Origin: Candidatus Latescibacterota bacterium | GTDB lineage: Bacteria; Latescibacterota; UBA2968; SICM01 | Length of the DNA: 41,268 nucleotides | Direction of reading: 5' to 3' | Assembly: GCA_009694805.1 (NCBI GenBank) | Contig: SICM01000018.1 | Location: 1-41,268, forward strand | In this document: positions 15,185-20,537 of the stretch, in pieces | How positions within the stretch are numbered: the first letter of the stretch is position 1 | How the letters are laid out: each line of letters starts with the position of its first letter | Made by a program: the position numbers and the translations under genes | Notes under the pieces: model-generated | What the model was told of the DNA's origin: nothing | The model's input: the letters and a program-made list of their open reading frames with translations, nothing else | Databases searched by the model: none

Positions 15185-16552
15185 TTATCGGAGCCGATTC
15201 AGACCATTCAGCGCCGCAACGCGGTAGGCCTCGGCCATGGTGGGATAATTGAACGTGGTGTTGATGAAATACATCAGCGTGTTGGCCTCCCCGGGCTGAG
15301 CCATGATCGCCTGGCCGATGTGGATGATCTCCGATGCCTGGTCCCCGAAGCAGTGGATGCCCAGGATCGCCAGCGTCTCGCGATGGAACAGGAGCTTGAG
15401 CATGCCGGTGGTGCGCCCCGTGATCTGCGCCCGCGCCAGGTGCCGGAAGAAGGCGTGGCCCATCTCATAAGGGACCTTCTTATCCGTCAGCTCCCGCTCC
15501 GTCAGGCCGATGGAACTGATCTCCGGGATGGTGTAGATGCCGGTCGGGATGTTCTCCACGAGATGGTACTCGCACATCCCGAACACCAGATGCGTGACCG
15601 CGAAGCGCCCCTGGTCATAGGCCGCACTGGCCAGGTTGGGATACCCCACCACGTCCCCGACCGCGTAGATGTGCGGCTGGGCCGTCTGGTAATTCTCGTT
15701 GACCACGATGGAGCCGCGCTCGTTGGTCTGAACCCCGATCGCCTCCAGCCCCATGCCGTCCGAGTTTCCGGTCCGCCCCTGCGCCCAGAGCAGGAAGTCC
15801 GTGTGGATCAGCTTGTTGGATTTGAGATGGAGCCGGACCCCGTCCTCGCCCACCTCGACCTTCCCGTACTCCTCGTGATGCCGGATCAACACCCCCTGGT
15901 CGCGCAGGTGGTAGCTCAGGGCGTCCACGATCTCATCGTCCAGAAAGGCCAGCAACCGGTCCCGGCTGTTGATCAGATTGACCTTGATGCGCAGCCCCCG
16001 GAAGATGGAGGCATACTCGCATCCGATCACCCCCGCCCCGTAGATCGTGATCGACCTCGGGTTCTCCTTGACGCTCAAAACCGTGTCGCTGTCCAGGATG
16101 CGCGGATGGGAGAAGTCCACGTCCGGGGGCCGATACGGCCTGGAGCCGGTGGCGATCACAAACCCCTGGGCCGTGTGCCGCTCCCGCCCGCCGTCGGCGA
16201 ACACGGTCTCCACCGTGTGCGGGTCTATGAACACGGCATTGCCGCAGATGACGTCCACCAGATTCCGCTCGTAGAACGTGCGGCGCATGGACACCTGCTG
16301 CCGGATGACCGACTCGGCGGACCTGAGGAGATCCTGAAAACCCGCCTCCCGGAACCGGCCCACGCTGGCGAGCTGCTGGACCGCGTGCCGGAGGGCCTTG
16401 CTGGGGATCGTCGTGCGGTGCGTGCAGTTGCCCCCCACCTCGGAGAGCCGGTCGATGACCGCGACCCTTTTGCCCTCCTTGGACGCCTTCATGGCCGCCC
16501 CTTCTCCGCCCGGCCCGCTCCCAATGACGATGACGTCGTACTGATAGGACAT
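15185..16552 (-). CDS. sthA: Soluble pyridine nucleotide transhydrogenase
   Basis: The 455-residue flavoprotein transfers hydride between NADPH and NAD+ in the cytoplasm. It has the FAD-binding motif [13 protein letters not shown] (residues 9-21), the second dinucleotide-binding motif [17 protein letters not shown] and the C-terminal dimerisation domain. The pattern [19 protein letters not shown] is diagnostic for SthA: the usual second cysteine of the disulfide reductases is missing. Length fits the family. GGGGAGAG precedes the ATG. It lies between the terminator of the accessory island (upstream) and the MOSC-lut operon (downstream). Confidence 0.95.
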
Positions 16553-16570: not shown

Positions 16571-16612
16571 ATAAAACAGCAGGCATAAGTATAGTGAACT
16601 TACGCCTGCTGT
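16571..16612 (-). terminator. Intrinsic terminator of the accessory-island operon
   Basis: ACAGCAGGCATAAGT (16576-16590), loop of seven bases, and ACTTACGCCTGCTGT (16598-16612) form a 15-bp stem with one mismatch. On the minus strand it is followed by TTTTAT. It lies 36 bases after the last gene of the five-gene operon and just before the sthA ribosome-binding site, so it closes the island transcript. Confidence 0.75.
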
Positions 16613-16647
16613 TCAAGAAAAAGTTTCGTGATCTTAAAGGAGGCGGA

Positions 16648-17151
16648 TCAGGGGGTTCGAGAAATACGTTTATACCATTCCTCCCATACCCTTATGTTCA
16701 AAACGGGGTCCCCGCTTCCGCCCGGAGGCGCTTCCGCAAGCCGGGTTGGCGTATGCTCTCCGAAAAAAAACGTCCATAACGCACATGCGGCAAATACCCC
16801 TTTCTGAAATTTCGTCCCTCTGGTCACACACCAGCGATTAAGACCGAGGTAGCCCGCCCGAATACTACCTGACCTACAAGACAAAACAGCATTTTCCGGG
16901 TCCGCGCCTAGCTCTTTGAGAGAAGCCCAAAGCCTGCGGTCTACATTTCCTGCGCTGGTCTCAAAGTCATAGAGCAGCCGAGCGTATTTTTCCTTGTCGA
17001 ACGCTTCAGGATTAACCAGTCTCAGATCACGCGAATACTGATCCCCACGCTTCCAGATCAACATCTTGTCCCTTTTGGATAGGTTTGGGAATTTGAGGCA
17101 TTTCCAAGAAGAGTCAGACCTGCCCTTCGTGATTTTCTTCCTTCCCTTCAT
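16648..17151 (-). CDS. Protein of unknown function, last gene of the accessory island
   Basis: The 167-residue protein is basic at the N-terminus (MKGRKKITKGRSDSSWK), followed by a soluble alpha/beta-type region (PEAFDKEKYARLLYDFETSAGNVDRRLWASLKELGAD) and a mixed C-terminus with two tryptophans. I recognise no family. The start at 17151 overlaps the upstream gene by 38 bases and has GAGGA about eight bases before. A TTG directly preceding it is possible, and an internal ATG at 17064 cannot be excluded. Base composition is clearly less GC-rich than the flanking genes. Its position in the operon suggests it is an accessory partner of the NYN and PD-(D/E)XK-like proteins. Confidence 0.6.
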   Translation of the reverse strand: MKGRKKITKGRSDSSWKCLKFPNLSKRDKMLIWKRGDQYSRDLRLVNPEAFDKEKYARLLYDFETSAGNVDRRLWASLKELGADPENAVLSCRSGSIRAGYLGLNRWCVTRGTKFQKGVFAACALWTFFFGEHTPTRLAEAPPGGSGDPVLNIRVWEEWYKRISRTP

Positions 17152-17401
17152 CAAGCACTTCCTCTATGGTCAACAGGTCGCTTCCCAACGCCCGCGATGC
17201 TAGCCGGCTTCCCATCCCGCTCAGAAAGGCTACGTCCTCTTCAGGAAGCGTACATTCCCCCACTTTCAGATAAGCAGAAAACCCCAGCAGAGCAAGATAG
17301 AGCGCATAATCCTCGTCGGCGACTGTAACGGGTTTAAACCGATGGGTGATCTCTTGGAAACGAGCAACGTAGGTTTCCGGCATCGACGTCAACTGGTTCA
17401 T
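17114..17401 (-). CDS. Small acidic protein of unknown function in the island
   Basis: The 95-residue acidic protein (MNQLTSMPETYVARFQEITH start) appears mostly helical, with a hydrophobic middle (YALYLALLGFSAYL) and a strongly acidic C-terminus (EEVLDEGKEENHEGQ). I recognise no family. A strong AGGAGG site lies nine bases before the ATG, which supports it as a real gene. It lies 36 bases after the 379-residue gene and overlaps the next. A small acidic protein beside a basic partner could be an inhibitor or adaptor, but this is speculation. Confidence 0.65.
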   Translation of the reverse strand: MNQLTSMPETYVARFQEITHRFKPVTVADEDYALYLALLGFSAYLKVGECTLPEEDVAFLSGMGSRLASRALGSDLLTIEEVLDEGKEENHEGQV

Positions 17402-17437
17402 CTCTTACCTCCTTTGTGAAATCTTGTGCGGATGTCT

Positions 17438-18577
17438 CTATAAAATGCCTCCCAACGCCCCTACAACCGCTTTTACGAAACCCTCATCTTCTTGCTCCGG
17501 AATCCTGATCTGTCCCCCCATTACCCATTCATGAAGATGCTTTGAGAGGCTGATTTTAAGGCGGCTGTCACAGTCGGAGATATATTCCCCCTGCGAAGCA
17601 TGAAGATTGCCGACCCTGAATAGACGGCGACCATCCCGGTTGACGGTCATCGTCTTGCCTCCGTAGACCAACCCCAGGCGGCAGGAAAATTCAGACCGGA
17701 GGGCTTCTTGCAAGACTTTTCCACCTGCGCCGCATCTTTCGCGGAATGTAAAAAACGTTGCCCGGCTTTCGGAGCCTGGGGTCGCCTGTGATCGTGGCGA
17801 TGAAGTTCCCCCCATCAGTGGAAAAATCTTTCGGTGGATGGATACTGCTTCTTCTGACGCCCTCAACCTGTCATACGGCAGTTCCAGCCTCTCAGCCCAT
17901 CTCGCCGGATACAGCCATACCAACGGAGATGAACCTGGCCCAAAAGCTATCAGGGCAACTCGAAAACACTCCTCTCCGATTTCATCTACGTAAGGCTTCA
18001 GCCGCCTCGCCATCTTCTCCATAGTGCCTACTGCATTTCCGCCGTTACCGCCGTCGAAAAACTCCAGGAGGTATCCTGCCCCAAGTCCCCCGCTCCGGAG
18101 TTCCCGGATAAGCTTTGCCGCATCTCCCGGCTCCGGGGCCTGATCGTCCAGAGGGGCGTCGATATTCCCCAGGGATGCCAGGCTTTTATTCTTTCCGACC
18201 TCAACAGCCACGACCGCCGGAAGTTCTTCGATTTCTTTCTTGCGGATGATATTTCCGTTTCTGGCTGTCAGCCCTGTGCCATCCACGAACGCCAGATCGA
18301 AACGTCCCGGTGATGCTGATATTCCGGTCTTCTGATAGGTAAGCGTGGTATAATGCTCCACCTGAAGGAGCAGAACGCTCTGACCTACCTCGGAACAGGG
18401 CGGCCAGATCGCCCGCTCTCCCGCATTGGTGAGCAGCCGGTGATAGAGGTAATTCTGAATCCCTGTGTCGCCGTGGAATCCGTAAGGGTGTCGAAAAAAA
18501 GCCAGAACCGTGTCTCTTATGGCCGCGTCTGAAATCCGAATGAATTCGTTCAAATCTGGAGGCTTTAACGGCTCCAT
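17438..18577 (-). CDS. Uncharacterised protein with PD-(D/E)XK-nuclease-like N-terminal half
   Basis: The 379-residue protein does not match a family I can name. Its N-terminal half follows the pattern of restriction-endonuclease-like folds: a helix (GIQNYLYHRLL, residues 39-49), a strand with VEHYTT (73-78), GRFDLAFVD with D94, then AVVAVEVGKNK with E126 and K129 or K131, and a later GDAAKLIREL helix. The spacing E-x-x-K rather than E-x-K is atypical, so activity is uncertain. The C-terminal half has no recognised motif apart from a glycine-rich loop (FFDGGNGGNAVG). An AGGAG site lies eight bases before the ATG. It follows the NYN gene by 21 bases. Confidence 0.6.
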   Translation of the reverse strand: MEPLKPPDLNEFIRISDAAIRDTVLAFFRHPYGFHGDTGIQNYLYHRLLTNAGERAIWPPCSEVGQSVLLLQVEHYTTLTYQKTGISASPGRFDLAFVDGTGLTARNGNIIRKKEIEELPAVVAVEVGKNKSLASLGNIDAPLDDQAPEPGDAAKLIRELRSGGLGAGYLLEFFDGGNGGNAVGTMEKMARRLKPYVDEIGEECFRVALIAFGPGSSPLVWLYPARWAERLELPYDRLRASEEAVSIHRKIFPLMGGTSSPRSQATPGSESRATFFTFRERCGAGGKVLQEALRSEFSCRLGLVYGGKTMTVNRDGRRLFRVGNLHASQGEYISDCDSRLKISLSKHLHEWVMGGQIRIPEQEDEGFVKAVVGALGGIL

Positions 18578-18598
18578 TTCTCGCTCCTTTCTAAGGGG

Positions 18599-19111
18599 TC
18601 AACCCAGAAACTCCACCCTATCTGCTACAGCCCAGAGGCTTGTTGCCAGAGCCTCCCGCAAGGCGAACACCTCGACTCGCTTTCCTTTGATCTCCTTCAA
18701 GTAGCGTAGAGCGGGTTCAAAATCCCCGTCGCCGCTGACCAGGGCAACCACGTCGGCGTCGCTGTCACCTGCTTCGTAAAGCGCCCGATGGATATACGGG
18801 TCGGTTCGATTCTTATGCTTTCCATTGGATAGCTGGCTCTCGATGGCTTCCACCTCAAAGCCTCGGTTCTGCATGGCAAAGACAAACCCCTCGTTGTGAG
18901 GCGTGGCGTCTGTGATGATCTTGGGTAGATTTGCAACCTCTCGATGTCCGTCGAGTATATTTTCTCGAAGCCGCTGATAGTCAATACGCCTTCCGAGGAT
19001 CGACAACGCAGCATGCTGAAGGTTGCACTCGTCGATGATGATGGCTACTTTTTCTACAGGTTCCCCAAACCGATAGCTGATGGCACGAAGTTGCTCTTGT
19101 AAGGTGTTCAT
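18599..19111 (-). CDS. NYN-domain (LabA/PIN-like) predicted ribonuclease
   Basis: The 170-residue protein is a single NYN domain. Metal-binding acidic positions of this PIN-like fold are present: D27 in VAIIIDECNL, D104 in NRTDPYIHRALYE, and D128 and D130 in ALVSGDGDFEPALRYL. The strand-loop pattern LVSGDGDF is the clearest signature. NYN proteins are Mg-dependent RNases, several acting in RNA decay, toxin or defence contexts. It is short, with no fused OST-HTH or other domain. It lies 22 bases after the HTH/zinc-ribbon gene and 21 before the PD-(D/E)XK-like gene, in one operon. Confidence 0.85.
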   Translation of the reverse strand: MNTLQEQLRAISYRFGEPVEKVAIIIDECNLQHAALSILGRRIDYQRLRENILDGHREVANLPKIITDATPHNEGFVFAMQNRGFEVEAIESQLSNGKHKNRTDPYIHRALYEAGDSDADVVALVSGDGDFEPALRYLKEIKGKRVEVFALREALATSLWAVADRVEFLG

Positions 19112-19133
19112 CAGGTTATCCTTTCAGAGAAAA

Positions 19134-19898
19134 TCACGTCGAAGAAGAAGCTTCAGTCCCTTTTCCGGCTTCATTGAATTTCCTGCCACAACCATCACAG
19201 AAATTTGTTTTTTGTTCTCCAAATCTGACTATTGGTTTTCCGCATTGAGAACACGAAGAGATCAGTTTCTTGCCACAGAATGGACAAAAGTTAAGTTCTC
19301 CTGCGAAGCCGAAGGTAGGAAACCAAATAAACTCCTCTTGGTCTGGATTATGGTCATGTTTCTTAGTGATACAGATTTTCGCCTGATAGATAAATTTAGG
19401 GCTATCGTAATAACCATACTCTTCATCTATAGCAAAACCAACTTCCGAAAGAAGGTCAAGATTTCCCTCAATCTTGGTCGTAAATCTACAACCGCACACT
19501 TCACAGAATTGATCTCCAACTCCCCCCCTGGGCGTACCACACCGAGGGCAATCGCCTTCAAGCTTTTTACCACAGTCAGGACAAAATTTGCTTTCAAACC
19601 CATCCCGAATACGTCTCACAACGAACATAGGATCATGGTGTGGGCAGAACCTGGGATAGAGCCTCTCATTTTTTATGAAAGATTCTAGATTCGTCCCCTT
19701 TGCCAGGTCTAACACAGACATTTTAAAAACATCGGCAAACCGAAGAAAAATGCCTACGCCAGGTTCCTTCTCACTTCGTTCAATTTTTGAGATTTCACTT
19801 TGAATTGTATCTATCCTATATGCAAGGTCCCCTTGAGTCATCCGGTTTTTTTCTCGTAATTCTTGTACGCGCTGTCCATATTTTATAATCTTTCCCAT
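19134..19898 (-). CDS. XRE-type HTH protein with multiple C-terminal zinc ribbons
   Basis: The 254-residue protein starts with a Cro/C1-type helix-turn-helix (about residues 7-68: RMTQGDLAYRIDTIQSEISKIE). It is followed by six CxxC pairs at 106/109, 117/120, 132/135, 205/208, 216/219 and 234/237, enough for about three zinc ribbons, in two clusters separated by about 70 residues. This is most likely the DNA- or RNA-binding regulator of the operon it heads. The zinc ribbons could sense a partner or nucleic acid. A GGAGG site lies seven bases before the ATG. It is one of the most AT-rich genes in the window, pointing to horizontal origin. Confidence 0.82.
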   Translation of the reverse strand: MGKIIKYGQRVQELREKNRMTQGDLAYRIDTIQSEISKIERSEKEPGVGIFLRFADVFKMSVLDLAKGTNLESFIKNERLYPRFCPHHDPMFVVRRIRDGFESKFCPDCGKKLEGDCPRCGTPRGGVGDQFCEVCGCRFTTKIEGNLDLLSEVGFAIDEEYGYYDSPKFIYQAKICITKKHDHNPDQEEFIWFPTFGFAGELNFCPFCGKKLISSCSQCGKPIVRFGEQKTNFCDGCGRKFNEAGKGTEASSST

Positions 19899-20129
19899 CG
19901 TGAAACCTCCGCTATCTGTCCTCAGTGCGCCAATATCTACACTGGGAAACCGTTCTCGGCTTTATGCCTATACGCGACATCCAATCGGCAGGGGCTAGTA
20001 CCGTCCGATCTATCGCGCTATCCTTGACCCGGAGGGCTGAGCCTTATCTCCTGCTGGCCTGTCCTCCCGCCGGGCTGAAGTGTCAAAGAGCATTTTTTTA
20101 ACTTTGCAGGTCTCCGGTGTTGTTTCGCG
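19899..20129 (-). promoter_or_regulatory. Structured 5' leader of the accessory island with boxA-like element
   Basis: Between the promoter at 20136-20164 and the HTH gene lies a leader of about 230 bases without coding potential. On the minus strand it contains TGCTCTTTGACA (20081-20092), very close to the boxA antitermination sequence. A helix follows, formed by GGGAGG (about 20063-20068) with CCCTCC (20031-20036), and a hairpin CAGTG/CACTG (19940-19944 with 19923-19927). I recognise no known riboswitch. It may be a regulatory or functional RNA of the island. Function is inference. Confidence 0.5.
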
Positions 20130-20135
20130 TAGGGT

Positions 20136-20164
20136 AATATAAAGCTTTTCATAACAAAAGTCAA
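20136..20164 (-). promoter_or_regulatory. Sigma-70-type promoter of the accessory island
   Basis: On the minus strand TTGACT (20159-20164) and TATATT (20136-20141) are separated by exactly 17 bases inside a very AT-rich tract. Transcription would start near 20129 and run through the boxA-like leader into the five-gene operon. Confidence 0.65.
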
Positions 20165-20318
20165 ATAGGAATTAAAAATAGAATTTTATATTTATAATCA
20201 ATAGTTTAAATCTAAAAAATCCGCAAAATATCTCATTCCCCAAATACTGCTGGACATCTTCCCTTACTCCGTTATATTTGTCCATCACGGGGATGAGATC
20301 GCATAGGAGGAAGAAGCG

Positions 20319-20537
20319 ATGCGCATTGAATACGACGCTGAGGTAGACGCGCTCTACATCGAGTTCCGGCCCCTTGCGGCGGGCACCGCCGAGGCGCGGA
20401 CCCTCAGCGAGGACATCACGGGCAACTTCGCTCCGGACGGCAAACTGGCCGGCCTGGAGATTCTGGATGCGAGTAAAGTGCTGGGGGAAGAAGTGGGGAA
20501 GGTGGTAATGGAACTCAGTCCGATGGCTCGCCACTGA
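20319..20537 (+). CDS. DUF2283-family protein
   Basis: The 72-residue protein has the DUF2283 pattern: MRIEYDAEVDALYIEF followed by an acidic GNFAPDGKLAGLEILDASKVLG. The family is widespread and small, often beside toxin-antitoxin genes, and its function is not established. It is complete in length. The AGGAGGAAGAAGCG sequence before the ATG is a strong ribosome-binding site. It is 22 bases upstream of the oxidoreductase gene in the same direction. It reads away from the accessory island, with the AT-rich stretch at 20150-20260 between them. It may or may not belong to the island. Confidence 0.88.
   Translation: MRIEYDAEVDALYIEFRPLAAGTAEARTLSEDITGNFAPDGKLAGLEILDASKVLGEEVGKVVMELSPMARH

Follow-up and report, generated by a model that had tools for sequence, protein, structure and literature searches.

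Outside the rRNA operons, boxA elements have been reported upstream of CRISPR arrays (Stringer et al. 2020, as cited in PMC7862264), and a boxA no more than 50 nt from the start codon represses suhB and the Citrobacter koseri ParE toxin gene (PMC5725501). The boxA-led CRISPR arrays and the C. koseri boxA-ParE locus are cases in which an rRNA-type boxA precedes a non-ribosomal, conflict-related locus. Cyanobacterial XRE-DZR regulators, for example Fischerella NIES4106_58800 and Scytonema NIES4073_03800, carry a helix-turn-helix (HTH) followed by a double zinc ribbon within about 150-170 aa, are encoded divergently from a tyrosine recombinase and often lie near a Tn3 transposase. A further point of reference is given by the LabA/DUF88-type NYN proteins (PDB 2qip; Pfam PF01936).

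We analysed a 41,268-nt stretch of DNA from a Candidatus Latescibacterota bacterium (contig SICM01000018.1 of assembly GCA_009694805.1), referred to below as the window, in which a five-gene island is preceded by an rRNA-type boxA. Unlike the two boxA-led loci, the island has neither a CRISPR array nor a ParE gene, and its operon encodes proteins, with 182 nt between the boxA and the first gene. The product of this first gene, g1, resembles the cyanobacterial regulators in its HTH and following double zinc ribbon, but has a second ribbon pair and no adjoining recombinase. The product of g2 shares with the LabA/DUF88-type proteins a whole-domain match and most of the active-site motifs, but is only 27-38% identical to its whole-domain NYN relatives, has Ala in place of the second motif-II Asp and stands in a different gene context. 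Our preferred reading, to which we give a probability of roughly 40%, is that the island is a horizontally acquired, self-contained nucleic-acid-targeting cassette, most likely a conflict module.

Layout of the island

The minus strand holds, from 19898 to 16648, five ORFs with ribosome-binding sites and tight spacing. The features, in window coordinates and in the direction of transcription, are:

20165 to 20260, minus strand: AT-rich tract, UP-element-like by its GC content, upstream of the promoter
20136 to 20164, minus strand: promoter TTGACT-N17-TATATT (10 of 12 consensus positions)
19899 to 20129, minus strand: untranslated leader of ~230 nt with several possible stem-loops
20081 to 20092, minus strand: boxA TGCTCTTTGACA, identical to the 16S-23S rRNA spacer boxA of the same genome
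19134 to 19898, minus strand: g1, XRE helix-turn-helix plus two double zinc ribbons, 254 aa (Pfam, collinear relatives)
18599 to 19111, minus strand: g2, NYN (PIN-like RNase family) protein, 170 aa (Pfam NYN, PDB 2qip, motif alignment)
17438 to 18577, minus strand: g3, 379-aa orphan, tentatively PD-(D/E)XK-like (from a motif read by eye)
17114 to 17401, minus strand: g4, 95-aa orphan with a strong ribosome-binding site, AAAGGAGGT
16648 to 17064, minus strand: g5, orphan, 138 aa from ATG 17064 (168 aa if from TTG 17154)
16571 to 16613, minus strand: intrinsic terminator with a 15-bp stem, 9-nt loop and T-rich tail (direct sequence reading)

The original prediction had listed five minus-strand genes with gaps of 22, 21 and 36 nt (g1-g2, g2-g3 and g3-g4), the promoter, a leader of about 230 bases and a closing terminator; all are present in the sequence, with matching coordinates and spacing. 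The ribosome-binding sites are GGAGG for g1, AAAGGA for g2, AAAGGAG for g3, AAAGGAGGT for g4 and AAAAGGGA for g5. The one overlap that had been described, between g4 and g5, exists only if g5 is read from TTG 17154. The likelier start is ATG 17064, which has AAAAGGGA upstream, so that the overlap is replaced by a 49-nt gap. The terminator, with stem arms read directly from the sequence at 16613-16599 and 16589-16575, escaped an automatic terminator scan, which admits loops of at most 8 nt.

Foreign composition and genomic setting

GC content is 44-55% inside the island, versus about 60-74% outside. GC3 is 0.36 in g1 and 0.59, 0.57, 0.57 and 0.52 in g2 to g5, while the flanking genes have values of 0.90, 0.82, 0.93 and 0.75. 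With 0.36-0.59 inside versus 0.75-0.93 in the flanks, the five genes can be regarded as foreign, and both measures agree with the earlier observation that the island is less GC-rich than the sequence on either side. That the island is a single transcription unit of foreign origin with a boxA-type leader is well supported.

We looked for flanking direct or inverted/terminal repeats around the island and found none. The flanking genes examined are metabolic, and no defence gene, defence island, integrase, recombinase or transposase was recognised among them. The downstream pyridine nucleotide-disulphide oxidoreductase has a relative in the closest genome that is 82% identical, and its relatives are preceded by different sequence. 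The sequence upstream of sthA varies among relatives, and an empty site could not be demonstrated from this comparison.

The difference in GC3 between g1 (0.36) and g2-g5 (0.52-0.59) suggests that the cassette may have been assembled from two sources. Two sources would also speak for the island as the remnant or passenger of a mobile element, such as a transposon or plasmid fragment, in which g1 is the element's regulator and g2-g5 are carried along without a joint function. The nearest architecture-level relatives of g1 adjoin tyrosine recombinases and Tn3-family transposases, and joint conservation of the five genes was not found in the collections described below, as such a remnant would have it. 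We nevertheless consider this unlikely, given that no recombinase, transposase or terminal repeats were seen at the island and that the even tight spacing, the ribosome-binding sites and the single promoter and terminator suggest a maintained operon.

Promoter, leader and boxA

The promoter, at 20164-20136, matches the sigma-70 consensus at 10 of the 12 positions and is preceded by a very AT-rich tract. GC amounts to 23% over the 125 bp at 20136-20260, in a region of ~65% GC, and the tract may act as an UP element. The boxA follows ~44 nt downstream of the -10 element. In the 4.9 Mb genome, TGCTCTTTGACA has exactly two copies: one at 20092-20081 in the island, the other in the 16S-23S rRNA spacer, between the tRNA genes and the 23S gene. 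The two are identical at 12 of 12 positions, and a related sequence, GGCTCTTTGAAA, is carried by the 16S leader. For the 412-nt region upstream of g1, the chance expectation is 2e-5 for the exact boxA and about 9e-4 for a sequence with at most one mismatch to the E. coli-type consensus.

The boxA-type leader of the original prediction is thus borne out by a sequence identical to the genome's own rRNA-spacer boxA, and this identity with the boxA of the cell's own rRNA operon is the best-supported new point of the analysis. Since TGCTCTTTGACA occurs only here and in the rRNA spacer, the Nus antitermination factors of the host are probably employed by the operon, in the way known from CRISPR arrays in other organisms. 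If boxA does recruit ribosomal antitermination to a foreign protein operon, acquired AT-rich genes would have a simple means of evading silencing by Rho, and the identity of the two copies makes the antitermination reading cheaply testable with a reporter.

Joined to the boxA is the ATG of a 27-codon frame (MLFDTSARREDRPAGDKAQPSGSRIAR; 20010-20093, minus strand), for which no ribosome-binding site is present. The predicted fold of the leader (19899-20120) has an energy of -74.1 kcal/mol and a z-score of -1.9; 10 of 200 shuffles were equally stable, and the structure is mildly beyond that of the shuffles. No credible match was found in an Rfam search of the window and the leader. When the leader DNA was compared with plasmids and with the phylum, only matches of 15-30 nt were obtained, which is chance level. 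Exact matches to the pattern ATGCTCTTTGACA in 64 phylum genomes were rejected as similar leaders, as they lay within coding sequence or in unrelated places.

Alternatively, the boxA could serve for repression, with the bound Nus factors lowering expression of the operon, as is the case for suhB and the C. koseri ParE gene. Such repression is established for a boxA less than 50 nt from the start codon (PMC5725501); here, the distance to the g1 start codon is 182 nt and translation of g1 should not be blocked, while the sole nearer start codon is that of the 27-codon frame, which lacks a ribosome-binding site. Repression is therefore improbable, and the distance would fit antitermination better.

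The HTH-zinc-ribbon protein g1

The HTH and zinc ribbon expected for g1 were both recovered by Pfam above cut-off (DZR, 7.2e-11; HTH_31, 1.5e-6; HTH_3, 4.2e-6). The protein is collinear with the Fischerella plasmid regulator NIES4106_58800, at 29% identity over 142 aa. The g1-like XRE-DZR family was found in 50 plasmid records, those named being nearly all cyanobacterial. Five loci were inspected on cyanobacterial plasmids. In four of them the XRE-DZR gene points away from a divergently transcribed gene for a tyrosine recombinase or phage-type integrase, and in three there is a Tn3-family transposase nearby. The divergent arrangement is seen at L022, L102, L104 and L105, two of which have the Tn3-family transposase nearby.

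On the Nostoc plasmid pTCL26-01_D (L103, 4028-5833), the gene next to a g1-like regulator is annotated as a PDDEXK nuclease. This pairing, in which the nuclease is known by annotation alone, is either a coincidence or possibly a case of the same kinds of proteins being paired independently.

The NYN protein g2

The NYN assignment of g2 was confirmed by Pfam NYN (PF01936) with an E-value of 1.1e-16 and 62.1 bits, against a cut-off of 24.2, and its relative of solved structure is PDB 2qip (9e-6). Aligned with full-domain relatives and 2qip, g2 retains the ID..N (IDxxN), K..D and SGDGDF motifs. However, the second Asp of motif II (the "AID" position), conserved in the aligned full-domain relatives and in 2qip, is Ala in g2, which thus lacks the complete conserved acidic set of the family. 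By sequence, this substitution weakens the claim of an active RNase, but not membership of the NYN family, and activity of g2 cannot be assumed. The single match to g2 in the genome-contig collection was rejected, as it spans just 28 residues of an archaeal protein.

The NYN relatives found for g2 are generic LabA-like proteins, and their neighbours are housekeeping genes unrelated to the island. This setting would suit an RNA-processing or stress operon, controlled by g1, in which the NYN protein processes its own boxA leader or another structured RNA, and the rRNA-type signals, the AT-rich upstream tract and boxA, point the same way. Such an operon seems rather unlikely to us: the foreign composition and the absence from sampled relatives are atypical of core RNA processing, and the leader has no RNA family match and folds only slightly better than its shuffles.

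The orphan proteins g3, g4 and g5

The original prediction had called g3 PD-(D/E)XK-like, a claim that was left with a motif reading. No match to g3 was found in Pfam, NCBIfam, PHROGs, PADLOC or PDB sequences, and its single-sequence AlphaFold model, with a pLDDT of 31, is unusable. Read by eye, the protein has the order helix, RFDLAFVD, AVEVGKNK, DAAKL and GYLLEFFD. The order is suggestive of a restriction-endonuclease-like core, although the spacing of the candidate E and K is ExxK-like (EVGK), versus the ExK of the PD-(D/E)XK core.

For g4, no meaningful matches were obtained in the profile libraries or sequence collections searched. For g5, no relatives were found in the collections searched; the sole PADLOC match was a type I specificity subunit at 15 bits, and the single-sequence AlphaFold model (pLDDT 39) is unusable. 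Apart from those of g3 in two genomes (G002 and G012), the weak genome matches to g3 and g5 lay antisense to other genes or in a different reading frame from them, and two weak g5 matches in 363 genomes were chance frames. For the three protein families represented by g3, g4 and g5, no relatives were detected; in the operon they accompany a predicted RNase and a regulator of mobile-element type.

Distribution and co-occurrence

Relatives were sought in overlapping genome samples (100, 64 and 386 genomes for g3, 64 and 374 for g1, 363 for g5 and 374 for g2), in viral contigs, phages and plasmids, and in two scans of 84,980 species genomes with g3 and g2. No credible relatives of g3, g5 or g1 were found in the 363-386 sampled genomes, no co-occurrence of island genes in the viral, plasmid and phage scans, and no relative of the whole system in up to 386 genomes and the viral, phage and plasmid collections. 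The only relatives found anywhere were generic NYN proteins and cyanobacterial g1-like regulators.

Failure of the genes to be conserved together elsewhere had been named in advance as what would refute the module, and in the samples searched the five are nowhere found together. With not a single homologue of g3-g5 detected, however, the result speaks of missing data more than of a counter-example. Since only close relatives are within reach of the pattern-based scans, and the genomes searched were samples, the system may occur in organisms outside these sets. A very narrow distribution also fits a fast-evolving mobile cassette.

A proposed conflict-related cassette

Host or element would most likely gain from the cassette in a conflict, through restriction of phages or mobile elements or through toxin-like maintenance. 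In favour of the cassette reading, we count the foreign composition, the exact copy of the rRNA-spacer boxA, the NYN match at 1.1e-16 with three motifs kept, the g1 relatives on plasmids beside tyrosine recombinases and Tn3 transposases, and the precedent of boxA before CRISPR arrays (PMC7862264) and the ParE toxin gene (PMC5725501). Against it stand the metabolic flanks without defence gene or integrase, the lack of terminal repeats, the motif-II Ala of g2, the unconfirmed PD-(D/E)XK assignment, a leader fold only mildly beyond shuffles and the fact that NYN proteins are also housekeeping RNases. The nucleic-acid-targeting part is suggested by g2 and by the predicted zinc ribbons and HTH of g1.

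In such a cassette, host Nus factors would attach to the boxA in the transcript and thereby modify RNA polymerase, so that neither the leader, which is untranslated, nor the foreign, AT-rich genes behind it would fall to Rho termination. The g1 protein would bind near its own promoter and regulate the operon, its zinc ribbons perhaps sensing nucleic acid or zinc state. The RNase effector would be g2, whose catalysis may be weakened. Its partner g3 would be nuclease-like or would bind nucleic acid, and g4 and g5 would have an accessory or neutralising role as subunits.

The gene set of no named anti-phage system was found; PADLOC gave only a generic HTH, a LabA-like NYN and the 15-bit match to g5. 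It is doubtful, if conceivable, that the island represents an undescribed defence or conflict system in which an NYN RNase, a new nuclease-like family and two new small proteins are expressed from foreign, AT-rich DNA through the host rRNA antitermination signal. Of the original interpretation, the foreign unit, boxA leader, HTH/zinc ribbon and NYN protein held, and the PD-(D/E)XK assignment and the anti-phage or toxin role stay putative; for the latter, the PADLOC matches are generic only, the neighbours metabolic and co-occurrence absent.

Genes next to the island

A DUF2283 gene (8.7e-13) lies at 20319-20537 on the plus strand, pointing away from the island and ahead of a GFO/IDH/MocA oxidoreductase gene. 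Small toxin-like genes (DUF4258) are frequent neighbours of DUF2283 genes; no partner was seen for this one. At the other end, a promoter-like site, TTGAAC-N17-TATACT (9 of 12 positions; 16588-16616, minus strand), shares part of its sequence with the terminator dyad. The pyridine nucleotide-disulphide oxidoreductase gene that lies downstream, at 15185-16552, could be transcribed from it.
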